Of a stretch of DNA of 64,000 bases, positions 7,704-62,468 are shown in pieces (position 1 is the stretch's first letter; each line of letters begins with the position of its first letter). The notes under the pieces were generated by a model. It saw nothing but the letters and a program-made list of their open reading frames with translations. It had not been told where the DNA came from and made no database searches. The DNA is from Prevotella sp. E2-28 (GTDB lineage: Bacteria > Bacteroidota > Bacteroidia > Bacteroidales > Bacteroidaceae), in NCBI RefSeq assembly GCF_022024055.1, contig NZ_CP091788.1:1798001-1862000 (forward strand). Direction: 5' to 3'. Both the position numbers and the translations under genes were made by a program.

Positions 7704-8975
7704 TTACCAACTGGATGTGGCACCACCACCACCACTGCTACCACCGCTGAAGCCACCTCCGAAACTTCCGCCTCCGAAGCCGCCTCCGCCAAAGCCTTCA
7801 CTGCGACCACCGCCTCCCATACCTATGAATACAGGACCTGCGGAATGCGCCTTCTCAACAAACGGGTTGGGACGTAACATGCCTAAAGCAAAAGTCATCA
7901 GGTTCCATCCCAAGAGTCTAGACATCGCGTAATATAAGATACCCCATCCGAAGAGAATCACAAGATACAGGAATGGTAACAAGGGAACATCGTCATCATC
8001 ACTACTTGCTTTTCTCTGCACCGTTAGTTCTGCCATCTCAGGCAGTTCCTTGCCTTGCAGGGTGTTGTAGATAGCATCCACCATGTAGATAAGTCCGCTA
8101 TCTGGCAACTCTGCTTTCATACTGGGTATGAGGTAGTGCTCCTGCAGTCGGAAACATTCCACGTCAGTCAGTTCGGCTTCTAATGCTCGACCGGTCTGCG
8201 TGCGGAACTTATGATCATCATAGGCCAGCACCATTACCAATCCATAATCTTTCTTACCAACCTTGTAGATATCGAAGATACGCTGTGCAAATCCATCGAT
8301 GTCAGCCCCTTCCACATGACTTACGACAGCAACGACAGATTCAATACCTAGAGAGTCATCCAACTGTTTTAGTTTTGCATCAAGTCTCATGACGGTTTCT
8401 TGACTAATAATACTGTCTGGGTTAGACACATAGCGTCTGCCGTCCTTCAAATGTGGCATGGGGATGTCCTCGGCACGCCAATAATGCTCGGTAGTGTTGC
8501 TGAAAGCTGATGAGGCATCCTCCTCGCCATATTCTGCTAAAGCATGTGTACATGCCCCCAAAGAAACAATCGAGCCAATGATAATCAGTCCCTTCCAATA
8601 GATAGTCCACTTACGGTCGGCCTTACGCTGAGCGTTCCACTCGTGGATAATCTGACGAGCCTCATTGGTAAACTGTTTCTTCTCGTGCGTATATCTGCTT
8701 TGGTATTCTCTTCTAAGAGAAGTCGTATTCTGACCCGTCAACTTCTGAAAGATATTCTGCTGAGTTTTAAGTGACTTCTTATCTGCCTTATAAGATTGTT
8801 CCAAAGACTTAATCTGAATATTGTATTTCTGTGCGCAGGCTTGCAGTTTATTTTTCTTGTTTTTTAGCAAAGCCTGTCGCTCCTTGTTGCCTGAACGCTC
8901 AGCGAATAGTCCTCCGACAACCATGCTGCCGAAGATTATGAAGTAGATACAAAAAAACGTCCAGGCTGTTTCCAT
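7704..8975 (-). CDS. TPM domain membrane protein with Gly/Ser-rich tail
   Basis: This is a 423-residue membrane protein. In order it shows an N-terminal membrane helix (residues about 5-25), a basic coiled region (about 30-120), a second helix (about 126-145), a TPM-phosphatase/YgcG-type domain (about 180-310, with LDDSLGIESVVAVVSHVEG and KKDYGLVMVLAYDDHKFRTQTG), a further membrane helix around 335-355 and a Gly/Ser-rich tail. TPM proteins pair with LemA; the two genes are adjacent here. The coiled segment before the TPM domain is not part of the basic family architecture. Confidence 0.85.
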   Translation of the reverse strand: METAWTFFCIYFIIFGSMVVGGLFAERSGNKERQALLKNKKNKLQACAQKYNIQIKSLEQSYKADKKSLKTQQNIFQKLTGQNTTSLRREYQSRYTHEKKQFTNEARQIIHEWNAQRKADRKWTIYWKGLIIIGSIVSLGACTHALAEYGEEDASSAFSNTTEHYWRAEDIPMPHLKDGRRYVSNPDSIISQETVMRLDAKLKQLDDSLGIESVVAVVSHVEGADIDGFAQRIFDIYKVGKKDYGLVMVLAYDDHKFRTQTGRALEAELTDVECFRLQEHYLIPSMKAELPDSGLIYMVDAIYNTLQGKELPEMAELTVQRKASSDDDDVPLLPFLYLVILFGWGILYYAMSRLLGWNLMTFALGMLRPNPFVEKAHSAGPVFIGMGGGGRSEGFGGGGFGGGSFGGGFSGGSSGGGGATSSW

Positions 8976-8986
8976 TTTCTAATCCT

Positions 8987-9736
8987 TTATTTCTCTTTTC
9001 CGTTCCAGAATTCCCATGAGGCAAAAGCTTGCAGGAGAAGCATTTCCAAACCGTTTTTCACACTAGCGCCACGTTCTGCACCTTTTTTCATGAACAATGT
9101 CTCATCAGGATTATAGATAAGGTCATAAAGAATATTCTTCTCATCCAAGGCCTCGTATGGCAACTTCGGACATTCTTCAGTCTTAGGATACATGCCTAAT
9201 GGTGTACAATTCACTATGACGTTGTATTCCTTTACCACATCTGGTGTGATGTCTTCATAGCAAATCGTATCAGGACGTTGGTAACGGCTCACATAAACAG
9301 TTTCCAATCCTAATGACTGAAGGCCGTATGAGATAGCTTTTGAGGCACCGCCCGTTCCCAATATCAATGCTTTCTTGTGATAAGGCTCCAACATTGGTTC
9401 TATACTCTGCGTAAAACCGATAACATCAGAATTATAGCCTTTCAACTTCACATCCTTTCCTTCATGGATAACCCTGATAACGTTAACAGCACCAATAGCA
9501 CGGGCCTCAGGACTAATCTGATCCAGATATTCCATCACTTTCTGCTTATAGGGGATAGTGACGTTCAGACCTTTCAGTTCAGGATTAGAGTCAAGCACTT
9601 CCGCTAGTGCTTCGATAGTAGGAATTTCAAAATTCATGTACTTGGCATTGATGCCCTCGTCAGCAAACTTCTGATTGAAGTAATTGATAGAGAACGAGTG
9701 TCCTAAAGGGAAGCCTATAAGTCCGTACTTGTCCAT
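8987..9736 (-). CDS. aroE: Shikimate dehydrogenase AroE
   Basis: AroE reduces 3-dehydroshikimate to shikimate with NADPH in the chorismate pathway. The product is 249 residues, slightly short but typical for Bacteroidales. Substrate-binding motifs are GFPLGHSFS at residues 8-16 and LNVTIPYKQKVM with the catalytic lysine; the nucleotide-binding loop is LILGTGGASKAISYGL and a later motif is NCTPLGMYP. It lies 15 bp downstream of the menG/ubiE gene and 11 bp upstream of the TPM gene, so the run is probably one transcript. Confidence 0.95.
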   Translation of the reverse strand: MDKYGLIGFPLGHSFSINYFNQKFADEGINAKYMNFEIPTIEALAEVLDSNPELKGLNVTIPYKQKVMEYLDQISPEARAIGAVNVIRVIHEGKDVKLKGYNSDVIGFTQSIEPMLEPYHKKALILGTGGASKAISYGLQSLGLETVYVSRYQRPDTICYEDITPDVVKEYNVIVNCTPLGMYPKTEECPKLPYEALDEKNILYDLIYNPDETLFMKKGAERGASVKNGLEMLLLQAFASWEFWNGKEK

Positions 9737-9751
9737 AACTATTGATAAAGT

Positions 9752-10516
9752 TTATTTGGTTGCGAAATACATTGTGCAAATACCGAAGGTAAGCCTTCTG
9801 AAAGAAGCATCCTTGAAGCCCGCCTGCCGCAGAATCTGCTGCATCCGTTCACCTTGCGGGAACGCTTCTATAGTTTTTGTGAGATACGAATAGGCGCTGG
9901 TGTCCTTGGAGATAAGTCGTCCATAGACAGGCAGCACCGTATGAGAGTAGATATGGAAGAGCTGTTTCATGGGAAAACTTACTGGTGTAGTCAGTTCTAC
10001 AATACTTAGATGTCCACCAGGTTTCAGCACACGACACATCTCACTCAGTCCCTTGTCCAAATCAGCAAAGTTGCGGATTCCGAAAGCTGCAGTGACAGCA
10101 TCAAAAGTGTCGTTAGCATAACTTAAATGCAAACAATCCTCTTTGGCAAATGAGATTGTGTCCTGCAGACCTAATTGCTTTACCTTTTGTCTGCCAATCT
10201 CCATCATCCCTTCACTGATGTCAGCCCCGATAAGCGTCTTTGGGTGCAACATCTGTGCAGACAGGATGGCAAAGTCCCCTGTACCCGTAGCTATGTCGAG
10301 CATAGTTTGGGGTGTAAAGGGGGCTAATTGCTTAATGGCTTTCTTGCGCCATCCTTTATCTATGTCCCACGAAAGTCGATGGTTCAGCGTATCATAGGTA
10401 GGAGCGATGTTATCAAACATCTGCTCCACCTGTTGCGCTTTCTCGCCCTCGTGATAAGGATTGATCTCTTCCTGTTTATACATATTGTCTATCTGTTGTT
10501 GCTGTGACAGCAACAT
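9752..10516 (-). CDS. menG: Demethylmenaquinone methyltransferase (UbiE/MenG)
   Basis: This class I SAM-dependent methyltransferase makes menaquinone from demethylmenaquinone. It is 254 residues from the ATG at 10516; an alternative ATG at 10483 gives 243 residues and matches family N-termini better ([10 protein letters not shown]). SAM motif I reads [36 protein letters not shown] and [17 protein letters not shown] are classic UbiE signatures. Only 6 bp separate the 10516 start from the purC stop, which favours co-transcription. Another menaquinone gene, menA, lies about 33 kb away in this window. Confidence 0.93.
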
Positions 10517-50624: not shown

Positions 50625-51509
50625 ATGAGTGCTATAAATAAAGCAAAAGGCGTGAAATACACTTTTTCTGGGCACGAGTCGTTTCCTTGCAAGTCGCTTT
50701 GGCTAAAGAAAGGGTATGATTTCGTTGTGGCAGGAAATGACTTCAATAGTCCTGAGGCTGTGATTGGACTGGGTGTTGGAAAGAACATGGTTGCGTCCAT
50801 CCGATTCTGGTTGAAGGCTTTCGGTATTACTGAGAATGATGAGATAACATGGCTTGGCAATTACCTCTTCGATGAAAACAAGGGTAAAGACAAGTATATT
50901 GAAGATATTGCCACGTTGTGGTTGCTGCACTTCAATTTAGTTTTCTCTGAGGAAGCAACACTTTACAAGATGTTCTTTTGTGGTGTTCAGCGCGAGCGTA
51001 CACATTTTGAGAGGGAGCAGGTGCTGACATTCGTGAAACTGAGAATGGTGGAAGCGAATAAAATGACGCTGTTCAATGCCAATACGGTGAAGAAGGATAT
51101 TGCTGTGCTACTTCAAAACTACACGCTGCCTCGCAAAGCACAATCCAATGAAGATTTCTCATCATTGCTGATTGATCTTGACTTAATTCGCCAGAGTTCA
51201 GAAGGTAAGGGATACTACTTCAATGTTGATGGCAAGCGTAAGGTAACAAATGAGATTTTCCTTTATGGTCTTCTGAAACTGAAGGAGCAAGAGGGTGATA
51301 ATACCATATCTTTCGATACTATTCATGAAAGAGTTGGACTTGTATTCTGTATGCAGGATTTTGAGACCATCGAAATACTTAAACAGTTGGCCAATGATTA
51401 CAGCCAGTATCTTGCTTATAGTGATGTGGCTGGTATCAAACAAGTTCAGTTTATTAAGGACTTGGATGTTAAACAGGTATTAGACATTTATTATGGCAAA
51501 GACATTTAG
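50625..51509 (+). CDS. sspB: DUF4007 protein, SspB-like nickase of DNA phosphorothioation
   Basis: The 294-residue protein carries the DUF4007 pattern: YTFSGHESFPCKSLWLKKGYD (near residues 11-31, read with its last letter as a separate position), LGVGKNMVASIRFWLKAFG (about 49-67) and EDIATLWLLHFNLV (about 94-107). From family knowledge, DUF4007 proteins include SspB, the strand-nicking component of the SspABCD system that puts sulfur into one DNA strand. It is the first gene of the operon; its 3' end overlaps the next gene by 17 bp. The nickase role is inferred; no classical nuclease motif is obvious. Confidence 0.75.
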   Translation: MSAINKAKGVKYTFSGHESFPCKSLWLKKGYDFVVAGNDFNSPEAVIGLGVGKNMVASIRFWLKAFGITENDEITWLGNYLFDENKGKDKYIEDIATLWLLHFNLVFSEEATLYKMFFCGVQRERTHFEREQVLTFVKLRMVEANKMTLFNANTVKKDIAVLLQNYTLPRKAQSNEDFSSLLIDLDLIRQSSEGKGYYFNVDGKRKVTNEIFLYGLLKLKEQEGDNTISFDTIHERVGLVFCMQDFETIEILKQLANDYSQYLAYSDVAGIKQVQFIKDLDVKQVLDIYYGKDI

Positions 51510-54500
51510 TTTATCTGCAAACATAGAGAACGGCTTTGCCGAAGGGATGCAATACATGGTAACGCCAAATGCCCAGAATGCTATTCACAACATTGTGAAC
51601 GATTTCCGTACTGGCATTCATTCTTTCACTATCATTGGTTCATATGGCACAGGTAAGTCGAGTTTCCTGCTGGCTTTGGAGGCTGACTTGAAAAAGACAG
51701 GCAAGCAGAAGTATCTGCTGGATTCCAAGAACCTCTCTGATGCCAAGTCGTTTGAGATAATGAATATCGTGGGCGACTATGCAGAGATGACAACACTATT
51801 GAGTAGGGCCTTGAACGTGGAGGGTAATTCCACCAGCATTCTTGATAGTTTGAAAGATTATTATAATCAATGCCAGAAGAAAGGTAAATTCCTACTGATT
51901 GTTGTTGATGAGTTTGGTAAAGTGCTAGAACATGCCGCCAAGAACAATCCTGAAAAGGAATTGTATTTTCTACAGAAGCTCTCTGAGTTGGTGAATGTAC
52001 CCACTCGACAGATAATGCTTCTCACCACGCTACATCAGAACTTTGGAGCATATGCAAAAGGTCTAACAGAAGAGCAAGCTAACGAGTGGACAAAGGTAAA
52101 GGGACGTTTTAAAGAGATAACCTTTGTGGAGCCAGTTGAGCAGTTGTTGTATTTGGCATCAGCTCAATTAAAAGAACAAGGAAAGGTTAATGCTGCAGAT
52201 AATATTGAACCACTTTATGAACTGGCAAAAGAGACACGATATGTAGCGAAAGATTTCTCTATGGAAACAGCCAAACAACTATTCCCATTGGATCTCTTTT
52301 CTGCATACACTATTACTACGGCTATTCAACGATATGGTCAGAATGAACGTTCGCTTTTTACTTTCTTGGCTGCCAAAGGTACGAATTCAATTTCTGAGTT
52401 CGAACCAGCAGAGCATCTGACATACAACCTACAGAAGGTGTATGACTATGTGTTATACAACTTCTATTCTTATCTGAAAGATGCCAATGCAGACTCGATG
52501 AGCTGGAGCACTATTCAGGTTTCCATTGAGCGTGTAGAAGGCCAGAACTGGAGTTGCAATGAGGAAATGTTACAGGCTGTTCAGTTGGTGAAAGCCATTG
52601 GTCTGCTGAACCTCTTTGGTACAGCTGGATTCAAGCTCACAGAAAGGAACCTGACAGATTATGCTCGTGAGGCTATGGCGATCGATAATGCCAAAGAAAT
52701 TATTCAGAAACTTACTGCCAAGAAAATCATCCGTTTTGCTGCATATAAGGAGCGCTTGATGCTGTTTGAGGGAACTGACGTAGATCTCGAAGCCGAGATA
52801 CGTGAGGCTGGCATGATGGTATCACGCCCTGTTACTTTTGTGGATGAATTAAATGTGTTCTTCAATCGCAGAATTTCTCCAGTCAAGGCCCACTTCTATC
52901 AGAAAGGTACACCACGATTTTTTGATTACATGATTCGTGAAGAACCTTTGGATGCAGTACCTACTGGCGATACAGATGGCTACATCGAACTGATATTCTC
53001 TACGCACAAGAAGGCTTTAGAGGAAATCAAAAAGTTCAGTTCTGAAACTGATCATGCTCTGATATTTGCTTACTTCACTAATACGGAAGACATCATTGAC
53101 CACCTCTACAATATCAAGAAGTACATGTATCTGTTGGAGCGTGTGCTTGACAAGAACGATAGAGTGGCTGTTTCTGAAATCCAAAAGCTGAAGGAATACG
53201 AAGAGACCTTGCTCAACAAGGCCATCAGCGATAATCTCTTCTCATACAAGAAACGAGTTGTTTGGGTGTTTGCAGGAAAGGAACAGAAGGTTGAGTCGCA
53301 TCGTGACTTCAACCAGCTGCTTTCAAGAGTATGCGACCAAGTATACAGCAAAACGCCTGTGATGATTAATGAGTTATTCAATAAGCATAAGCTTAGTGGT
53401 ACGATTACTGCTGCTCGTAAGAGTTATCTGACCTATCTGACAGAGCATTATTCTGAGAATGGAATGGGCTTTCCGGAAGACAAATTCCCACCAGAGAAAA
53501 CCATCTATTCTTCGTTGCTTTTGAATACTGGTCTCCATCAGAATGGTGATTTCGCAAATGCGCCTACCAACAAGGGCTTCATGCCGTTGTGGAATGCTTG
53601 TGAGGATTTCCTGAAAAACTCAGAGAATAAGGCAAGGAAGATATCTGAGTTGATAAAGATACTATCTGCTCAGCCCTATAAGTTGAAGCAGGGATTCTTG
53701 GAGTTCTGGATTCCTACTTATTTATTCATTAAACGTCAGGATTTTGCGCTTTATGATGCATCAAAGGGCGCATTCATGCCTAATGTGAATATGGAATTTT
53801 TTGATTTGCTCCAGAAACATCCTGGTGATTTTGAAATCAAGAAGTATGCAGTTGATGGCGTAAAGTTGGACTTCTTTAATCAGTATCGACGTTTCGTTAA
53901 TCTGGGCGATGAGTTTACTATAACGAATACCAATTTCATTGAGACCATCAAACCATTCCTCAGTTTTTATGTACGTCTGGACGAATACACTAAGCATACT
54001 CGCAAGTTTGATCATGAGTCAACAATGAGGTTCCGTGATGTGTTGGCCAAAGCAAAAGATCCAGAGAAAGCTTTCTTTGAGGATTTACCAGAGGCTCTTG
54101 GCTTTACTCAGGAGAAACTGAAGCAAGAAGAGTTTATCAATGAATATGGTAAGATTATTCAGCGAGCTATCAGGGAACTGAGATCTTGTTACTCTCAACT
54201 GATTGATCGCATTGAGGCACGTCTGGTAGAAGAGTTTGGTTTGCAGAGCTATGACTATTCAGAATATATCGTTGAAGTGCGTGAGCGACTGGCCCATGTG
54301 AAAGATTATCTGCTAACAGGAAAACAGCGTGAGTTCTACCACCATGTGATGACAGAATATGACAATCGCATCCAATGGTATCAGTCAATATGCTACACTA
54401 TTCTCGAACAACGTCTTGATGCATTGAGGGATGAACAGGAAGATAAGCTGGCTGATGACTTGGTATATCTGTTCAGAGAATGTGAGAAGTACTCAGACAT

Positions 54501-54720
54501 ATCCCAAAAGGTGGGTGACTCTGATAAGAATGAGGCTTATTCTTTCGATATGGTGACGAATAAAGGAACCAGCGTAAGGACTCAGACATATGTGTTGCCC
54601 GAAAAAGATAAGTCTAAGGCAAAAGACCTGGAACAGAAAATCAGCAAACTGCTCTCAGGTGATAACAATATCGACGTTTGTACTCTGCTGTCGATACTTA
54701 ATAAGAAAATAAATAAATGA
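51493..54720 (+). CDS. sspC: Large P-loop ATPase, SspC-like
   Basis: The 1075-residue protein has an N-terminal P-loop domain: Walker A GSYGTGKSS at residues 49-57 and Walker B FLLIVVDEFGK at 133-143, followed by a long mostly helical region with no recognised domain. In SspBCD clusters the second gene encodes such a large ATPase, required for modification. The start ATG overlaps sspB, and its stop TGA overlaps the ATG of the next gene (ATGA), so the three are translationally coupled. It differs from BREX BrxC by context: no BREX methylase or PglZ gene is present. Confidence 0.72.
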   Translation: MAKTFSLSANIENGFAEGMQYMVTPNAQNAIHNIVNDFRTGIHSFTIIGSYGTGKSSFLLALEADLKKTGKQKYLLDSKNLSDAKSFEIMNIVGDYAEMTTLLSRALNVEGNSTSILDSLKDYYNQCQKKGKFLLIVVDEFGKVLEHAAKNNPEKELYFLQKLSELVNVPTRQIMLLTTLHQNFGAYAKGLTEEQANEWTKVKGRFKEITFVEPVEQLLYLASAQLKEQGKVNAADNIEPLYELAKETRYVAKDFSMETAKQLFPLDLFSAYTITTAIQRYGQNERSLFTFLAAKGTNSISEFEPAEHLTYNLQKVYDYVLYNFYSYLKDANADSMSWSTIQVSIERVEGQNWSCNEEMLQAVQLVKAIGLLNLFGTAGFKLTERNLTDYAREAMAIDNAKEIIQKLTAKKIIRFAAYKERLMLFEGTDVDLEAEIREAGMMVSRPVTFVDELNVFFNRRISPVKAHFYQKGTPRFFDYMIREEPLDAVPTGDTDGYIELIFSTHKKALEEIKKFSSETDHALIFAYFTNTEDIIDHLYNIKKYMYLLERVLDKNDRVAVSEIQKLKEYEETLLNKAISDNLFSYKKRVVWVFAGKEQKVESHRDFNQLLSRVCDQVYSKTPVMINELFNKHKLSGTITAARKSYLTYLTEHYSENGMGFPEDKFPPEKTIYSSLLLNTGLHQNGDFANAPTNKGFMPLWNACEDFLKNSENKARKISELIKILSAQPYKLKQGFLEFWIPTYLFIKRQDFALYDASKGAFMPNVNMEFFDLLQKHPGDFEIKKYAVDGVKLDFFNQYRRFVNLGDEFTITNTNFIETIKPFLSFYVRLDEYTKHTRKFDHESTMRFRDVLAKAKDPEKAFFEDLPEALGFTQEKLKQEEFINEYGKIIQRAIRELRSCYSQLIDRIEARLVEEFGLQSYDYSEYIVEVRERLAHVKDYLLTGKQREFYHHVMTEYDNRIQWYQSICYTILEQRLDALRDEQEDKLADDLVYLFRECEKYSDISQKVGDSDKNEAYSFDMVTNKGTSVRTQTYVLPEKDKSKAKDLEQKISKLLSGDNNIDVCTLLSILNKKINK

Positions 54721-55820
54721 CAAAAGTAAGACATATATTAGGCATTTCAGGAGGTAAGGACAGCGCAGCCCTCGCCATCTATTTGAAGAAAACGTACCCA
54801 TCGCTTAAGATTGAGTACTATAATTCAGATACAGGTTGTGAATTGGCTGAAACGGAAACATTGATTAATCGCCTTGAAGCCTATTTGGGTAAGATAGAAC
54901 GACTCAGAGCTGCTGAAGGTAGTCCGGAGCCAACACCATTCCATCACTTTTTGAAAGCGATGGGTGGATTCCTGCCTTCGCCACAAGCCCGCTGGTGTAC
55001 CAAGAAGATGAAACTCGACAAGTTTGAGGAATATGTGGGCGACAACTACGCAGTGTCATACGTTGGCATACGTGGCGACGAGGACAGAGACGGCTATATC
55101 TCTTCGAAGCCCAATATTCAGGCCATCTTCCCATTCCGCAAGAATATTTGGAGTATCGATGTCATTAACAAGTTCCTGCATAATGAGAACTTGGAGCAGA
55201 TAGCGGAAATATACGAGCGACTTTGTCCTGAGGGTTTCCTTCGCGATGAGATTTTGGAAATGGTGCGAAAGCCTATCACGAAACAGTTCTACTACTCGAA
55301 GAAGATGAACGCCCTGTTGGACTATGATATTAAGTTGTTCAATCATGCTGTGTTCGAGTTCCTAAAAACGACAGACTATCCTGTGGGTAAACTTGACGAG
55401 TTCCCACTACTTGACAATACAGACATTTTGGTGAAGGACGACATTTTCCGCCTGCTGAGGGAAAGTGGAGTTGGTGTGCCAGCCTACTACGAGGAGATTC
55501 CTTTCGAGGTAGATGGTGAAACGGGTACCTATTGTCGCAGTCGTTCTGGTTGCTACTTCTGTTTTTTTCAGCAGAAAATAGAATGGATTTGGCTCTATGA
55601 GCAGCATCCTGATCTCTTTAAGAAAGCGATGGAGTTTGAGAAAGACGGCTACACATGGAATCAGAATGAGAGTCTTGCAGACCTCATCAAGCCAGAGCGT
55701 ATCCGCCAGATAAAACTCGACATCATCCGTCGCCAGAAAGAAAGCCGGGCCAACAATAAGGGAACCACCCTTGCTGAAATCCTTGGTGATGATATCATGT
55801 GTACGAACTGCTTTATATAG
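54717..55820 (+). CDS. sspD: PAPS-reductase-family ATP pyrophosphatase, SspD/DndC-like
   Basis: The 367-residue protein has the PP-loop SGGKDS at residues 11-16, YNSDTGCELAETE, and ARWCTKKMKLDKFE (about 98-111). The C-terminal part has Cys273, Cys279 and Cys282 (CRSRSGCYFC) and a terminal CTNC (362-365), which suggests an iron-sulfur or zinc site. In the Dnd and Ssp systems this enzyme activates the DNA phosphate with ATP and passes sulfur to it. It needs a cysteine desulfurase (SspA/DndA or IscS) as sulfur donor, and none is encoded in the window. Confidence 0.8.
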   Translation: MTKVRHILGISGGKDSAALAIYLKKTYPSLKIEYYNSDTGCELAETETLINRLEAYLGKIERLRAAEGSPEPTPFHHFLKAMGGFLPSPQARWCTKKMKLDKFEEYVGDNYAVSYVGIRGDEDRDGYISSKPNIQAIFPFRKNIWSIDVINKFLHNENLEQIAEIYERLCPEGFLRDEILEMVRKPITKQFYYSKKMNALLDYDIKLFNHAVFEFLKTTDYPVGKLDEFPLLDNTDILVKDDIFRLLRESGVGVPAYYEEIPFEVDGETGTYCRSRSGCYFCFFQQKIEWIWLYEQHPDLFKKAMEFEKDGYTWNQNESLADLIKPERIRQIKLDIIRRQKESRANNKGTTLAEILGDDIMCTNCFI

Positions 55821-55833
55821 ACAATGATGGCCT

Positions 55834-58056
55834 ATGTTGTACGAGGTAGATTGGGCAGAAGATGGGACGTATGTACCAGGTGAAGAATACTCACCAGAAC
55901 GTTTCTTCGATGATGGGCTGAAGAATAGCACAGAGTTTGACTTAAAACTGGGCTATTTCAGTTCTGCAGCTATTAGTGTGCTGGCTGAAGGATTTGCCAC
56001 CTTCATATCAAAGGGGGGCAGAATGCGATTAATCATCAATCACATCGTTTCAAAGAAAGATAAAGAGGCAATTACTAATGGTGTGATGGGTAATATTATT
56101 GACTGCACAGACCTGTCGAATTTCCAGTACCTCAAAACGACTTTCAATGAGTATCAAGAGCAGTTCTTTCGATGTTTGGCCTACATGATTTCACAAAAAC
56201 GCATCGACATAAGAATCATTAAGCCACGAGGACAAAAGGGTATCGCCCACACTAAAACAGGTCAATTTAGGGACGGGGATAGTGTAACTGCATTTACAGG
56301 TTCTGCCAATTTTACGATCAGTGGTCTGTTTAACAATATAGAAAACATATCGATAGACAGAAGTGATTCCGTGGATGTAATGGTACAGAAAAGAATCGAG
56401 AAGCAAAGAAAAGATTTCGATGCTATCATGTCTGGGGAGAAGAAAGGAATAGACTACTTGTCTCCCAAAGACTTAGTGGAAGCGATAAGTACCAACTATG
56501 GTGATTCAGACATAGAGGAATTACTGGATGTAGAAAAGAAACTCAAAGAACACAAAAGTGGGAGGAAAGTTGATGACTCACAAACCCCATGGATGGCTGC
56601 TGAAGAAAGTACAGAAATTGAGCCACACTTCCCTTATCCGACAGGTCCTCGCGACTATCAGCAGAAAGCGTTCGATAGTTGGAAAAAAAGTCAATGTGGC
56701 TTATTCAACATGGCTACAGGTACAGGTAAAACGCTGACATCTCTCAATTGTCTTTTGCAAATTTATAAAAAGTTTGGATACTATAAGGCAATAATTCTTG
56801 TTCCGACAGTTACATTGGTTGAGCAATGGGAAAAGGAATGTAGAAAGTTCAATTTTCAACATATAGTAAAGGTTTGCTCGAAAAACAAAGACTGGAAAGG
56901 TGAGATAGATAGGCTCACGATGAAAGAGAATTTCAACCCAACAAATTCACCTATCAACTATGTCGTCATTTCGACTTATGCGTCATTTGCCAGAGATAAT
57001 GTATTTCATGATTTGATGTCGCTTTCTAAGAAATGCTTGCTTATTGCGGATGAAGCACATAACATGGCATCTAAACGAATCCTTGATAGGATAGATAGTG
57101 TTAGCAAAAGATTTAAACGTCGAATAGGTTTATCTGCAACACCAGAACGTCAGTTTGATGAAAAAGGCAATAAAGAACTTAGGCATTTCTTTAATTCAGA
57201 AAATGGCTATACCTTTTTGTATACAATGGAGGAAGCTATCAAGAATAAGTTCCTTTGTGAATATTACTATTATCCGCATGTAGTACGACTTTGCGATGAC
57301 GAAATGTATAACTACATGGAGATCTCTGAGAAACTTGGTAAAATCTATAGGTATAATGGTGGTTATCTTGACCTTGAAGATGAGATTGTTAGGGCTCTAC
57401 TCTTGAAAAGAAGACGCATTATACATAAAGCACGAAACAAAAAAGATGCATTCAAGAACATCATTGAAGAACGATACAAGGAAAAAGGAAATCTCAAATA
57501 TACCTTGGTATATGTTCCAGAAGGCCTAAAGCCTGATTCTATTGCTGACGTTTATGATAGTTTTGATGTTGTTGGAGATGATGCAGAATCAGATAAACTA
57601 ATTGATGAATATACACAAATAGTAATGAATGTTAGCAAAACAACTACGGTTAGGAAATTTGTTTCAGGGCAAAAGGACAGGGAATCCATCCTTGAAGATT
57701 TTGCGAATGGCGACCTTGAAGTTTTGACGTCTATGAAATGCCTTGACGAGGGTGTGGATGTACCAAGAAGTGAAATGGCTATATTTTGTGCAAGTACAGG
57801 GAACCCTCGTCAATTTATACAACGCAGAGGTCGTATTCTTAGAACGCACAAGGATAAGAAATATGCTTATATTCACGATCTTGTGGTCGTTCCTGATATT
57901 GGTGCAGATTGTGTAGATTATGAGATGGAGCGAAAACTTATACTTTCTGAATTAAAGAGAGTAAGAGATTTCGCATCATTATCAAAAAACCTTGACTATT
58001 CTTACAGAGAATTAGAAGAGGTCCTAAACTTCTATAATGTTCCACTTTTAGATTAA
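55834..58056 (+). CDS. DEAH helicase with N-terminal phospholipase-D-like domain (SspF-like position)
   Basis: The 740-residue protein has an N-terminal PLD-like domain (about 25-190) with a partial HKD motif (His139, Lys141 in HTKTGQFRDGD, then GSANFTISG), and a superfamily 2 helicase core: Walker A ATGTGKT at 294-300, DEAH at 406-409, GLSATPER and QFIQRRGRILRTH. One PLD motif is visible, so a nuclease would have to be a dimer. It starts 13 bp after sspD. Its position matches the first gene of the SspFGH restriction module, which I recall as attacking unmodified DNA; the subunit name is not proven here. From about 57100 the DNA is visibly more A/T-rich than the flanking chromosome. Confidence 0.75.
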   Translation: MLYEVDWAEDGTYVPGEEYSPERFFDDGLKNSTEFDLKLGYFSSAAISVLAEGFATFISKGGRMRLIINHIVSKKDKEAITNGVMGNIIDCTDLSNFQYLKTTFNEYQEQFFRCLAYMISQKRIDIRIIKPRGQKGIAHTKTGQFRDGDSVTAFTGSANFTISGLFNNIENISIDRSDSVDVMVQKRIEKQRKDFDAIMSGEKKGIDYLSPKDLVEAISTNYGDSDIEELLDVEKKLKEHKSGRKVDDSQTPWMAAEESTEIEPHFPYPTGPRDYQQKAFDSWKKSQCGLFNMATGTGKTLTSLNCLLQIYKKFGYYKAIILVPTVTLVEQWEKECRKFNFQHIVKVCSKNKDWKGEIDRLTMKENFNPTNSPINYVVISTYASFARDNVFHDLMSLSKKCLLIADEAHNMASKRILDRIDSVSKRFKRRIGLSATPERQFDEKGNKELRHFFNSENGYTFLYTMEEAIKNKFLCEYYYYPHVVRLCDDEMYNYMEISEKLGKIYRYNGGYLDLEDEIVRALLLKRRRIIHKARNKKDAFKNIIEERYKEKGNLKYTLVYVPEGLKPDSIADVYDSFDVVGDDAESDKLIDEYTQIVMNVSKTTTVRKFVSGQKDRESILEDFANGDLEVLTSMKCLDEGVDVPRSEMAIFCASTGNPRQFIQRRGRILRTHKDKKYAYIHDLVVVPDIGADCVDYEMERKLILSELKRVRDFASLSKNLDYSYRELEEVLNFYNVPLLD

Positions 58057-58081: not shown

Positions 58082-58324
58082 ATGGCAAAGAATAAAAGAT
58101 ACAATGAGAATTATAACAAGATTCTTGAGGCAGTTCTCCTAGATGAAAAATTAATGGAGTATGCCCAGTATGAACCTTCTGAGATTACGTCTCTTGAATA
58201 TGCTCTTGGTTCTAACAATGCAATTGTTGGTGCTGTTGCAACTATCATTGAAGGACTAAGTGAAAAGAAGTCGGAAAAAGAGATATATAATACTGTAAAC
58301 GAATTACTAAAAAAGAAGCTATGA
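58082..58324 (+). CDS. 80-residue helical protein between the helicase and SMC genes
   Basis: This small gene lies 25 bp after the helicase and overlaps the SMC-like gene by ATGA, so it is a coupled member of the operon. The product is charged and helical (MAKNKRYNENYNKILEAVLL, then a hydrophobic NNAIVGAVATIIEGL and a lysine-rich end). No family is recognised. It could be a subunit adaptor of the SMC-like ATPase; that is inferred from coupling only. Confidence 0.6.
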   Translation: MAKNKRYNENYNKILEAVLLDEKLMEYAQYEPSEITSLEYALGSNNAIVGAVATIIEGLSEKKSEKEIYNTVNELLKKKL

Positions 58325-60516
58325 TAATACGTAGAATAGAGATAGAAAATTTTCGTAGCTACTATGGTAACGAAAACGTTTTTAAATTTGGGGAAGGCCT
58401 TACTTTGATTATAGGTGACAATGGCGATGGTAAAACAACTGTTTTCGAAGCTCTTCAGTGGCTACTTGACATTTCCAGCACAGATGATGCTCAGAAAAGT
58501 CATGCATTAGACAACTTCTCTGAAATGAGGAAGTCCAAACTTGAAATAGGTGAATCAGCCAACCTTAGGGTGAAGATGGACTTTGAACATGATGGACATA
58601 AGTCTGTGGAGAAACTATTTGTCATTACAAAAAAAGGAGAGGACTATTATGATGTGAGTGATATAAAATTCAAGGGCAAAGAAGATACGGACGAAGGAAG
58701 ACTTTCTCCAGACGGAAGAGGATTGATAAAACGCTGTTTTGATGCAGAAATGCAACATTTCTCAATGTTCAAAGGTGAGTCCCGACTTGATGTGCTTGAT
58801 GGCCCCAAAGCATTAAAAATGCTTGTTGACAAATACTCTGACATCAAGTATTTTGATGAACTCGTGAATCTTACTTCAAACTTTGAAAGTTCTGCAGATA
58901 AGGCTTTTCGTAAGGAAAGTAAGAACGATGAGAATACAAGAAGTGAAGCTATTAGATTCGATAATGAATTGACAAAACTGAGTGGAGAAATACAGGATAT
59001 TCGTAAGCAAATCAAGGAATTGTCTACTGCTGTAAGCTCTTACGAAACTATGCTAAAAGATTTGGAACAGAATCAGGACACGCGAGACAGATATAATGAA
59101 TTGTCGCAAGCTTTGGCTGGGAAAAAAGCTAATGCAACAAGTTTAAAAGCGAGCATAGACAAGGTTAACCTGAACACAAGTCTTCTTGACCAGTATTGGA
59201 TAATGTGTGCTTTTCCTGATATCCTTTCTGCCTTCAAGGACAAATGTGCCCAGTTGAGACGAGAGAAAGAAAGGCTACACGATGAATTTCTATTGGAAAG
59301 AGGTAAAGAACAAGGTGAACTAGACGCACTGAAAAAAGAGAATGAATCACTTCTAAACGACGATGCTAAATTGCCTTGGTATATCCCTGATGATAAATAT
59401 ATGAAGGAGATGATAATGGTGCATAGATGCAAAGTATGCAATACTCCTGCTCCAGAAGGTTCAGAGGCATATCGTTTCATGGTCAATAAACTTGAAGAAT
59501 ATAAGAAGCACATCAATGAACGAGCAAGAATTAAAGAAGAACAAGTTAAGTTAAGTAAAAAACAGCTCTTCACTGAGGAATACATAGACGAAATCAATGT
59601 TTTGGCAAACAGACTGTCAGGACCGGAAGAGGCTTTTATTTCAGGTATTGCAAATGATATCAATGACAGACTTGAGGTGGTAAGTCGAAAATCGGATGAA
59701 TTATCACAGGTCAAAAAAGATATAGAGGAAATAGAGGAGGATATTTCTCGTTTACTGATACAGGCGGGTAATATTTCCGAGGAAATGATGAAGAAAAACA
59801 ATTCTGACGTAAATAATATGTTCAGAAGGAAGAATGAAGCTGAACTAGAAATCAAAGATCTTGAGTTTGATCTTAAAGGCAAATTGAATCGTGAAGCAGA
59901 AGTTAAAGAGAAAATGGTTAATCTCAAACCCGGAAATTCTTTATCAAGGCTATACCAAAAAGTACATTTTGCATTTGATCAAATCGCACAGGCTTCGATG
60001 AGAGCAAAAGATAAGAATCTTTATAACTTTCTTAACGCATTAAGGGAAGGTGCAAATTTGTACATGGATCGTTTGAGCACAAAGGACTTCCATGGAGAAG
60101 TAAGTCTTTTCTATAAAAAAGACAAAGAGGAGGCTGGAATTAGACTGAAAAGTTCCAATGGTACGTATATTACAAAACCATCGGATTCTCAGAAAACAGT
60201 AATGTATATCTCAATATTATTTGCTGTTTCTGATTTTGCCCATAAGAAGACGGATGAAGAGTATCCTCTCATATTCGATGCAGCTACTTCTTCATTTGGT
60301 GATGCTAAAGAAGAAGAATTCTATAACATTATCAATGATGTAAAAAAGCAATGTATTGTTATTACGAAAGACTTCATTACAGGAGGAAAAGTCAGAATGA
60401 ACGATGTTGACAAACTTACATGCCGGGTATATCGAATACAGAAGGCAGAAGGATTCAACAGCTCGGATTTGTCAACTATAAGAACATTAGTGAAAGAAAT
60501 TAAAACGGAGGATTAA
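58321..60516 (+). CDS. SMC/Rad50-like ATPase with CxxC hook (SspG-like position; DndD-like)
   Basis: The 731-residue protein has Walker A GDNGDGKT at residues 32-39 after FRSYYGNENVFKFG, a long coiled coil (about 200-330 and 400-560) interrupted by a CKVC hook (Cys370, Cys373), a coiled return, and a Walker B-like LIFDAATSSFGD with Asp653. This is the architecture of Rad50 and DndD, usually dimerised through the hook by zinc. The Walker B shows DAA where DE or DAP is commoner. It may sense or bridge DNA in the restriction module. Coupled upstream, 2 bp from the next gene. Confidence 0.75.
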   Translation: MIIRRIEIENFRSYYGNENVFKFGEGLTLIIGDNGDGKTTVFEALQWLLDISSTDDAQKSHALDNFSEMRKSKLEIGESANLRVKMDFEHDGHKSVEKLFVITKKGEDYYDVSDIKFKGKEDTDEGRLSPDGRGLIKRCFDAEMQHFSMFKGESRLDVLDGPKALKMLVDKYSDIKYFDELVNLTSNFESSADKAFRKESKNDENTRSEAIRFDNELTKLSGEIQDIRKQIKELSTAVSSYETMLKDLEQNQDTRDRYNELSQALAGKKANATSLKASIDKVNLNTSLLDQYWIMCAFPDILSAFKDKCAQLRREKERLHDEFLLERGKEQGELDALKKENESLLNDDAKLPWYIPDDKYMKEMIMVHRCKVCNTPAPEGSEAYRFMVNKLEEYKKHINERARIKEEQVKLSKKQLFTEEYIDEINVLANRLSGPEEAFISGIANDINDRLEVVSRKSDELSQVKKDIEEIEEDISRLLIQAGNISEEMMKKNNSDVNNMFRRKNEAELEIKDLEFDLKGKLNREAEVKEKMVNLKPGNSLSRLYQKVHFAFDQIAQASMRAKDKNLYNFLNALREGANLYMDRLSTKDFHGEVSLFYKKDKEEAGIRLKSSNGTYITKPSDSQKTVMYISILFAVSDFAHKKTDEEYPLIFDAATSSFGDAKEEEFYNIINDVKKQCIVITKDFITGGKVRMNDVDKLTCRVYRIQKAEGFNSSDLSTIRTLVKEIKTED

Positions 60517-60518
60517 TT

Positions 60519-61667
60519 ATGAAATCTCTATTTGATGCTTGGAGCAATAAAGACCCTGAATGGGAGAAAAAATACGAAGAGTTGCTAATGATGCCCTTTA
60601 CTGACTATGGTAGAGGAACTAGTCAGTACACTGAGTCACGAGGTAAAATTTTTGGTGCAGGATATGAGATGTTTATCATTGGCTTTTTCATTGGATTATA
60701 TTTTGATAAGACAAGGAAATTGACAGATGACAAATCGAAGCGTAAGCACTTTGGACATAAAATAATGTTTTGGGGTAGTCAAGAAGGTAAGCTTAAACTA
60801 GGGCGGACATCGTACAAAAAGATTCAAGAGTACATGTTTGCAGCTCTTATCACAAAAACTGACATTGATTTTATTTCGTTGGAAAAGGGAGAAGTGAGTG
60901 TTGATGACGCTGCTAATTCCCTAAAGCATAAAATGGAAGAGTATGCAAATTACGGATTTCATTATTTGGAAGATATGTTAGAGGATGATCCGAATAGCTT
61001 GTTTAAGGACTCTGCTTTTCTTAAATTATTCACATCTTTCATTAGTGAAAACAACAATGATGAAGAAGAAATCGAAAAATTTGATGAAGATATAGAGCCT
61101 TTTGAAGATAATGATTCTGAAAATGAAGAAGTAGATGAAGAAACTCTGCGTGCAGAATCAGAGAAATCCTGGAAAGAGGATGACATTGATAGGCTAACCA
61201 TGTACTTTGAGCATGGTATGGAAATTCCATCAATAGCAGAAAGACTTGGAAAATCTCTCTATGCGGTGCAATACCAACTGTCTCTATTGGGCAAGATAAA
61301 AATGCCTCTTAATGTAACAGTTAAGAACACCGATCAAGGTGGAATAGTTATCAATAAGTCAGGAAAGGTGATATACAAAGACGAAGCTCCCCTTAAAGTG
61401 TTCAATGACAAGATCTACCGCTTCAATATGAAATCCATGTGTATGACAGTAAAAGATATTAAACGAGTTGATGGTGAATGGGTGAAAGGTAGTAAAGTGC
61501 TCGTTGCTTATTCAGATTCTGAATTATATCCTAAACTATCCAGTTCTAATTTTATCGACGATATAGAAGACTTTGTCGAGGGAGATAAACGTGAAGAGAA
61601 TAAGATTAAAGTAAAGGGGGTATGGTATGACTACTATGGTGACGTGTTAAGTTCCAAAAGGATATAA
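60519..61667 (+). CDS. Acidic protein with helix-turn-helix-like segment (SspH-like position)
   Basis: The 382-residue protein has an N-terminal helical domain (about 1-165, with GAGYEMFIIGFFIGLYF and an LGRTSYKKIQEYMF segment), a very acidic linker rich in Glu and Asp (about 180-215), and a helix-turn-helix-like region at about 234-260 (MEIPSIAERLGKSLYAVQYQ onward) that may bind DNA. The C-terminal 100 residues form a beta-rich domain. It is the last gene of the operon. I do not recognise the family; its place matches the third gene of SspFGH. The N-terminal part may resemble DndE, but the likeness is too weak to assert. Confidence 0.5.
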   Translation: MKSLFDAWSNKDPEWEKKYEELLMMPFTDYGRGTSQYTESRGKIFGAGYEMFIIGFFIGLYFDKTRKLTDDKSKRKHFGHKIMFWGSQEGKLKLGRTSYKKIQEYMFAALITKTDIDFISLEKGEVSVDDAANSLKHKMEEYANYGFHYLEDMLEDDPNSLFKDSAFLKLFTSFISENNNDEEEIEKFDEDIEPFEDNDSENEEVDEETLRAESEKSWKEDDIDRLTMYFEHGMEIPSIAERLGKSLYAVQYQLSLLGKIKMPLNVTVKNTDQGGIVINKSGKVIYKDEAPLKVFNDKIYRFNMKSMCMTVKDIKRVDGEWVKGSKVLVAYSDSELYPKLSSSNFIDDIEDFVEGDKREENKIKVKGVWYDYYGDVLSSKRI

Positions 61668-61687: not shown

Positions 61688-61718
61688 ATCCCAATCGCAG
61701 CAATGTGATTGGGATTTT
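61688..61718 (+). terminator. Terminator of the ssp operon
   Basis: A perfect 9-bp stem ATCCCAATC (61688-61696) with GATTGGGAT (61707-61715), 10-nt loop, followed by TTT and G. It lies 20 bp after the last cassette gene and separates it from the reader gene. Confidence 0.85.
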
Positions 61719-61871: not shown

Positions 61872-61902
61872 TTTGGATGAAAAGATTTATTTCGTATCTT
61901 TG
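61872..61902 (+). promoter_or_regulatory. Promoter of the SBD-like gene
   Basis: A -33 TTTG (61872-61875) and -7 TATCTTTG (61895-61902) are 19 bp apart, a near-ideal Bacteroidetes promoter, 26 bp upstream of the ATG at 61929. Confidence 0.75.
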
Positions 61903-61928
61903 CCCTCGAAAACCAATAACGAAGGGCT

Positions 61929-62468
61929 ATGAATAGAACAATACAATTCTTTAGTTACGAACAATGCTATAAATACTACACTAAGCGAATAATGAATATC
62001 AGACAGGCAAAGATTCATGGTGAGACTATCGTTGCCAAGCCTGTTCTGATGGTTGCTTTTATTGATGGAGTTGAGGCTAATGTATTTAGAAATAATCAGT
62101 TTGTTATCAATGACTGGCTCGAAGGTCATTATAATATGCTGATGTCACAATATGCTAGGAATTCGCAGTTTGATGATAGTACAAGTATTGAGAAACCATT
62201 TTGGCATTTAGAGACAGATGGATTTTGGCATTTAAACTATCAGGGTGAAAGACTTAGCAAGGGTCGTACACCATCAAAGGCTTGGCTTAAAGATAATGTG
62301 GAGTTTGCCTTTTTCGATGAATCGCTTTGGATATTGCTTCAAAATAGAGAGTGGCGTACGAAACTCCGTGAGTATATCATCGAGCATAAACTAACGGATG
62401 ATTCCTGGAAAGGTAAGATTGTGGCTGAAGGCCTTGGTGTCCTCGCAGCATTATTGATGGTTGCTTAA
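61929..62468 (+). CDS. Stand-alone protein resembling a sulfur-binding domain (phosphorothioate reader)
   Basis: The 179-residue protein shows the pattern of the SBD domain found at the N-terminus of ScoMcrA-type restriction enzymes: KPVLMVAFIDGVE (KP at 37-38), a VINDWLEGHYNML helix, PFWHL (90-94) followed by DGFWHL (97-102), and a C-terminal WILLQNREWRTKLREYII helix pair. In ScoMcrA the proline of this PFW-type segment lines the pocket that holds the phosphorothioate sulfur. No HNH nuclease domain follows; the protein ends in a hydrophobic tail. It lies 261 bp after the ssp operon under its own promoter. The SBD reading is from pattern memory and should be taken as moderate; relatives without sulfur binding exist. 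Confidence 0.45.
   Translation: MNRTIQFFSYEQCYKYYTKRIMNIRQAKIHGETIVAKPVLMVAFIDGVEANVFRNNQFVINDWLEGHYNMLMSQYARNSQFDDSTSIEKPFWHLETDGFWHLNYQGERLSKGRTPSKAWLKDNVEFAFFDESLWILLQNREWRTKLREYIIEHKLTDDSWKGKIVAEGLGVLAALLMVA

Follow-up and report, generated by a model that had tools for sequence, protein, structure and literature searches.

The sulfur-binding domain (SBD) has been described as a part of nucleases. ScoMcrA (5zmo) and SprMcrA (7ccd) carry it on a nuclease, and in the available portions of PMC12839542 and PMC10853773 the SBD was mentioned, as a winged helix-turn-helix domain, only in fusion with nucleases. In the SspABCD-SspE system, the DUF262 effector SspE itself senses phosphorothioate (PT), according to an excerpt of PMC9646914. 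For the DndCDEA-PbeABCD system, Xiong et al. (PMC6459918, in excerpt) report that virus carrying PT evades PbeABCD and that Pbe is inactive unless PT is present. This system was described with a four-gene pbe cassette. The excerpt of PMC6459918 named no PT sensor for Pbe, and a word search of its main text found neither 'SBD' nor 'sulfur-binding'. For BREX type 4 (BrxP, BrxC, PglZ, BrxL), no SBD gene was among the components named in the available portion of PMC12839542. Here, a window of 64,000 nucleotides from Prevotella sp. E2-28 (NZ_CP091788.1, positions 1,798,001 to 1,862,000) was analysed. It encodes a stand-alone SBD-like protein of 179 residues behind a cassette of SspBCD and PbeABCD. 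We propose, with a chance that we put at about even, that this protein is an accessory of SBD fold without a recognisable nuclease, which reads the PT placed by SspBCD as a self mark for PbeABCD. The gene and the codons of its putative pocket were located as follows.

61929..62468, + strand: gene of the stand-alone SBD protein (179 residues; SBD at about residues 10-155, hydrophobic tail at 164-179)
62034..62039, + strand: codons of A36 and K37, at the positions of H116 and R117 in the alignment with ScoMcrA
62193..62207, + strand: codons of K89-P90-F91-W92-H93, aligned with Y164-P165-F-W-A168 of ScoMcrA

The open reading frame was complete from ATG to TAA, and the motifs on which the first-pass annotation had relied were present in its product (KPVLM at residues 37-41, PFWHL at 90-94 and DGFWHL at 97-102). 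Of 893 candidate proteins, 817 were relatives at E ≤ 0.001, and all 120 among the matches listed were 171-185 residues long. Changes between the gene and six relatives fell mostly at third codon positions, for example 16/17/87 by codon position against locus L044. The open reading frame is a real gene, beyond chance. Sequence search and profile search both gave one SBD copy in the genome. The idea of a virus-borne gene was dropped, as not one of the 131 places where a pattern matched in viral_contigs encodes a relative. The annotation had also said that it knew of no described stand-alone example. This was too narrow, since the protein is one of a family whose domain already bears a label in public databases: many matches among the listed relatives bore the label PF26340.1, and one UniRef name began with 'ScoMcrA-like DNA sulfur-b'. 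In titles and the beginnings of abstracts, no description of a stand-alone SBD was found; the small gene may be listed in supplements or in the work of Yuan et al. on BREX type 4.

Homology and the predicted fold agreed on the SBD. The protein matched SBDHga1 (PDB 8h0l, for which no paper was found under that code) at E 1.4e-9 as a single-sequence query and at E 3e-29 with a profile query. Three tandem RecA constructs outranked 8h0l in the single-sequence search through one 35-residue stretch in many repeats (0.14-0.25 per copy), and these were gone from the list in the profile search. The NCBIfam model PT-DNA_restrict (NF045808) was matched at E 1.2e-7 with a score of 31 bits where its cut-off is 180, so the match covers the SBD part only. 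This meant that the N-terminal domain was homologous to that of the SBD-HNH and SBD-SRA-HNH type IV restriction enzymes, but the protein, at 179 residues and without HNH, did not belong to them. No HNH or SRA was recognised by the Pfam scan or NF045808, and no nuclease domain was found, the Pfam scan giving a weak RecA_C match only. No effector domain was recognised, which supported the first-pass annotation on this point. The Pfam scan missed the SBD itself because PF26340 did not come up even for relatives that bear it. In the AlphaFold model (pLDDT 83.6), SBDs took Foldseek ranks 1-10 and VIA ranks 1-7. An earlier model, built on 13 close sequences, was of poor quality with a pLDDT of 64.8 and was not used. 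The protein is thus predicted to have the SBD fold, as the first-pass annotation had supposed when it called for a structure prediction. Compared with SBDHga1, ScoMcrA SBD and SprMcrA, it has the pocket histidine replaced by alanine and an extra C-terminal helix.

The pocket residues of the ScoMcrA SBD were taken from the available part of PMC6224610. The proline of the pocket floor (P90, corresponding to P165) and a basic residue at K37 (R117) were found in 34 of 34 SBDs and in 120 of 120 relatives. P90 was invariant in the rows examined, and K37 differed only in P0151; most SBDs had lysine at the position of R117. In the proposal, the protein would grip the sulfur through K37 and P90.

A survey of 251 genomes of the family Bacteroidaceae was conducted for co-occurrence with PT writers, as the annotation had suggested. 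An SBD match was found in 22 genomes, SspC in 15 and full BrxP in 13. SBD and writer occurred together in 14 genomes, SBD alone in 8, writer alone in 12 and neither in 217 (odds ratio 32, Fisher p 7e-11). The table was limited to SspC and BrxP as writers, because the search for DndC covered just 14 genomes. BrxP matches were present in 59 genomes, and 46 of these were dropped because E exceeded 1e-200 and the matches were pieces or different frames of PAPS-reductase-like type. In G198, one of the 13 genomes with full BrxP, the frame is in two parts. One of the 8 genomes with SBD and without SspC or BrxP (G131) holds Dnd, in the order DndC, DndD (best match to the PbeC model, DndD next), DndE, PbeA, PbeC, a gene in the place of PbeD and a 203-residue H-type SBD. 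With a PT writer in 14 of the 22 SBD genomes and this one Dnd, the homologues did not lie mostly in genomes without a PT system.

The association was also observed at the level of the operon. A PT writer shared the operon or cassette in 11 of 13 stand-alone cases, one of the 13 being cut by a contig end; for the SBD-HNH enzymes, published counts differ. The two exceptions were L027, which follows an SF1-type helicase, and G176, on a short contig with a BrxP piece elsewhere (61 residues, 69% identity). Six fused proteins (G001, G017, G023, G036, G053, G110) and three pieces (G083, G141, G222) were left out; G124 was kept, although the contig ends within its SBD. The SBD gene lay directly behind brxP in 9 of 14 full BREX type 4 loci, and brxC was next in the 8 whose contig continues. 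It was absent from that place in L119, L121, L122, L124 and L146. The order brxP-SBD-brxC was kept in L079 and L080, from a search of one genus (139 genomes). The writer parts of BREX type 4 are homologous to those of the window, and the stand-alone SBD occurs with both; it is not among the BREX type 4 components cited above from PMC12839542. In locus L145, a stand-alone SBD follows DndCDE and Pbe genes, the same effector type as in the window. The nuclease-free SBD therefore recurs next to three kinds of PT-writer genes: those of Ssp, those of BREX type 4 and, in a single locus, those of Dnd. At the phylum level, SBD matches at 1e-6 were found in 24 other genomes of 395, and 23 of 25 places lay in frames of 302-427 residues. 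This meant that the nuclease-free form is a habit of Bacteroidaceae in these samples. An HNH regular expression caught 2 of 30 phylum frames, an HNH-like motif was visible by eye in many, and a profile test was run on L150 alone.

The genes upstream of the SBD gene were assigned as follows.

50625..51509, + strand: SspB (DUF4007; PF13182 2.9e-81, PADLOC SspB 2.4e-90)
51493..54720, + strand: SspC, a BrxC-related ATPase (PADLOC SspC E=0, BrxC 1.5e-63)
54717..55820, + strand: SspD, a sulfur transferase of PAPS-reductase type (PADLOC SspD 5.5e-86)
55834..58056, + strand: PbeA, PLD-like domain and helicase (PADLOC PbeA 6.7e-304, Pfam scan)
58082..58324, + strand: PbeB candidate of 80 residues (position and like genes in sister cassettes)
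58321..60516, + strand: PbeC, an SMC/Rad50-like ATPase (weak PADLOC matches LmuB 1.7e-19 and PbeC 4.1e-17, position, sister genes)
60519..61667, + strand: PbeD candidate of 382 residues (position and like genes in sister cassettes)

The PbeB candidate gave no profile match in Pfam, NCBIfam or PADLOC except a weak DnaI_N, and the PbeD candidate gave no PADLOC match. With SspBCD and PbeA assigned by profile and the other three Pbe genes mainly by their places, the cassette was read as a combination of Ssp writer and Pbe effector. The gene thus sits behind a PT cassette as first annotated, but this cassette holds a writer plus an effector and not a modification operon alone. SspBCD would write PT in the organism of the window. 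The phrase 'SspBCD-PbeABCD' was not found in the literature searched.

Close relatives of the gene were found in sister cassettes. In the genome_contigs search 13 loci matched, of which L055 was a 54-base match. The closest locus (L043) was 99% identical, with its upstream genes out of view. In L044-L049 the gene was 77-84% identical and was placed behind SspCD-PbeABCD. SspD in these loci was 93-98% identical to that of the window, and PbeC was 93% identical in L044 and 30-31% in L045-L049. With SspCD and the trailing SBD gene nearly constant and PbeC of either kind, the effector block has been exchanged while its flanks stayed in place. A second protein of 626-649 residues with an N-terminal H-type SBD precedes the stand-alone gene in L045 and L047-L049. 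L023 and L024 have a fused protein only (634 and 743 residues) and no stand-alone gene. An SBD inside PbeD was considered and ruled out, since the SBD is in a separate gene of 626-743 residues behind a PbeD of 200-203 residues. Fused protein and short PbeD form a second Ssp-Pbe subtype (L045 7970-9904, L023 993-2897, L024 16324-18555, L047-L049). The fused proteins have an N-terminal H-type SBD, a PbeD-like C-terminal region (with a Myb-like match in L024) and no recognised nuclease. Residues 216-378 of the PbeD candidate in the window resemble their C-terminal part.

According to the proposal, the neighbouring SspBCD would place PT marks on the cell's own DNA, and the SBD protein would bind these marks. 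Binding without cutting would let the SBD gene coexist with a PT writer. The read-out would pass by contact to the ATPase/effector complex, perhaps through the conserved C-terminal helix in the window protein and through N-terminal extensions in some relatives. PbeABCD would thereby learn that marked DNA is self. We made this proposal because Pbe is reported to need PT, no sensor was named for it in the excerpt, a nuclease-free SBD could tolerate a writer, and the SspE cassettes examined are free of SBD. In both SspE cassettes (L026 and L040, SspE by PADLOC), no SBD was found at E 0.1 within the DNA examined. The protein would be like SspE in reading PT for an Ssp writer; however, its domain is unrelated, and SspE reads and acts in one protein. 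A wider reading is held more tentatively. In Bacteroidaceae, the SBD may have turned into a nuclease-free self-mark reader for Ssp, BREX type 4 and Dnd, with the pocket re-shaped (alanine for histidine) in most members, and a sister clade with an asparagine lid may have been re-tuned to other marks, serving Druantia and helicase-ABC-HerA systems.

The gene has a separate start of transcription in prospect, and the following elements precede it.

61688..61715, + strand: intrinsic terminator in the gap from PbeD to the SBD gene (stem of 12 bp, -19.8 kcal/mol, z -5.2)
61872..61902, + strand: promoter TTTG-N19-TATCTTTG, Bacteroidota-type, exact consensus match
61903..61928, + strand: leader from the -7 box to the start codon, with an imperfect inverted repeat CCCTCG..CGAAGGG (folding compared with shuffles)

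The gene starts 261 bases behind the end of PbeD. We take TTTG-N19-TATCTTTG to be the Bacteroidota promoter consensus; 6 matches were observed in the window against 0.72 expected. Terminator and promoter together supported the claim that the gene has its own promoter. When three sister intergenic stretches were scanned, a terminator was found in L046 and none in L044 and L047. Of 10 close loci, 9 had a TAnnTTTG box 31-35 bases 5' of the start codon (the window, L043-L049 and L054), with L050 as the exception.

Several results weigh against the proposed reader of PT. The Fisher test ignores kinship among the genomes. The pocket histidine H116, among the best conserved residues of published SBD homologs, is replaced by A36. 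Among the 34 SBDs this position was A in 27 and H in 7, and among 27 frames from other families of the phylum it was H in 24, Y in 2, N in 1 and A in 0. A36 was read as a pocket variant; the histidine was not universal in the other-family frames either. Eight cassettes found through SspC had the PbeD end in view. One had the stand-alone SBD (the window), two had fused proteins (L023, L024) and five had none (L105, L107, L110, L174, L175). Pbe can therefore work without an SBD, and the gene is an accessory of Ssp-Pbe. A core part would be expected in all or most cassettes, whereas the stand-alone gene was in 1 of the 8 and any SBD in 3. The rest of the 15 SspC genomes had SspE (G014, G212), another gene order (G033), a contig end within the cassette (G066, G083, G114) or, for G077, lay outside this count. 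Relatives at 58-63% identity sit behind Druantia, helicase-ABC-HerA systems and elsewhere without PT genes nearby. The L052 genome gave no SspD, PF01507 or DndC match, and L050 (73%) is isolated, with no PT genes detected in its genome. Published counts conflict on whether SBDs that bear a nuclease keep away from PT writers: they were near dnd clusters in under 3.6% of cases according to PMC7461809, and a winged helix-turn-helix (SBD) with SAD and HNH was inside Dnd loci in 698 taxa according to PMC10853773. The clade at about 60% identity and the five SBD-free cassettes argue against a strict link to PT systems. These results were also what would be expected of a general winged-helix DNA-binding accessory of many defence systems, which reads another mark or a DNA structure and has Ssp and BREX type 4 as only two of its hosts. 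Druantia (L052), helicase-ABC-HerA (L053, L071, L072) and the SF1-type helicase of L027 would be further hosts, and L028 has a fused SBD in a cluster with a C5-methyltransferase-like gene (by eye). The residue before P90 pointed the same way. It was asparagine in 8 of the rows at about 60%, none with a PT writer in the DNA examined (for L037 only 5.6 kb; the L053 genome has BREX type 4 on another contig). It was lysine in 7 Ssp rows, L050 and L027, and tyrosine in 6, lysine in 3 and methionine in 1 of 10 BREX type 4 rows. This split fits a changed ligand, but it tracks the tree and is therefore no independent evidence for one. The near constancy of P90 and K37 and the 11 of 13 shared operons or cassettes argued for PT, and we consider the general accessory somewhat unlikely.

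Two other explanations were weighed against the PT reader. A transcription regulator might sense PT and act on the inverted repeat where its own transcription begins, so as to control its own gene or the cassette. Its own promoter and terminator, the conserved box and the repeat, strongest in L054 (0 of 500 shuffles as good), were consistent with this, and the repeat is a possible operator. However, folding in the window was weak alone (41 of 500 shuffles as good), the hairpins in most loci were equalled by many shuffles and none was present in L044, so a conserved RNA structure was rejected. In BREX type 4 the SBD gene begins within a few bases of the brxP end, and the gap to the preceding gene is 3 bases in L027 and 52 bases in L052, with no TAnnTTTG box in either. 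A regulator is thus improbable. Less probable still is a passenger, a short gene without a role that is carried along at the 3' end when defence cassettes are exchanged. The 3' position in unlike systems, the five cassettes without it and decayed pieces beside HsdR-like (L074), Cas9-like (L076) and Abi_2-like (L073) genes, labelled by eye, would suit one, but the conserved length and third-position changes would not, and in BREX type 4 the place is fixed between brxP and brxC and is not terminal. If the PT reader is correct, the small nuclease-free SBD is a direct candidate for how PT defence systems besides SspE tell marked from unmarked DNA. The SBD would be a reader of the cell's own mark beyond its role as a weapon against PT-DNA, and BREX type 4 would gain an extra component in the loci that carry it. 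A compact reagent for PT mapping might be possible if the binding motif differs from those of known SBDs.

A tree of 34 SBDs (LG+G4, ultrafast bootstrap) was rooted on the H-type group, whose own support value is therefore meaningless. The Ssp-Pbe SBDs and L050 formed a clade (91) nested among the relatives at about 60%, and the BREX type 4 SBDs formed a separate, weakly supported clade (66). Exclusivity of the family to PT systems was ruled out by L052, behind Druantia DruE (E=0), and by others; L051, L052 and L053 (60-62%) were all placed behind other defence-type genes. In L054, where the N-terminal piece is 87% identical, the gene follows a complete BREX type 4 system, and a pair of AbiE-like genes interrupts it (8733-10246, label by eye). 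Appendages varied with the host system, as a C-terminal tail in window relatives and as N-terminal extensions in L053, L071, L072, L098 and L147; those of L098 and L147 resemble extensions of neighbouring BREX type 4 proteins. An N-terminal segment LPxSPILEYAIxEK, perhaps a docking tag, was common to BREX type 4 accessory proteins and an SBD (L147 9038-11090, L146 13688-14707, L098). L053, L071 and L072 hold a system of helicase, DndD-like ABC ATPase and HerA-like protein with the SBD, N-terminally extended, as the last gene, and in L053 and L072 a gene of 201-202 residues precedes it. Decayed SBD gene pieces were also found in L077 and L078. In L029 (9055-10074), a 339-residue protein with a C-terminal SBD lay in a cluster assigned by eye to Zorya type (MotA/B-like).
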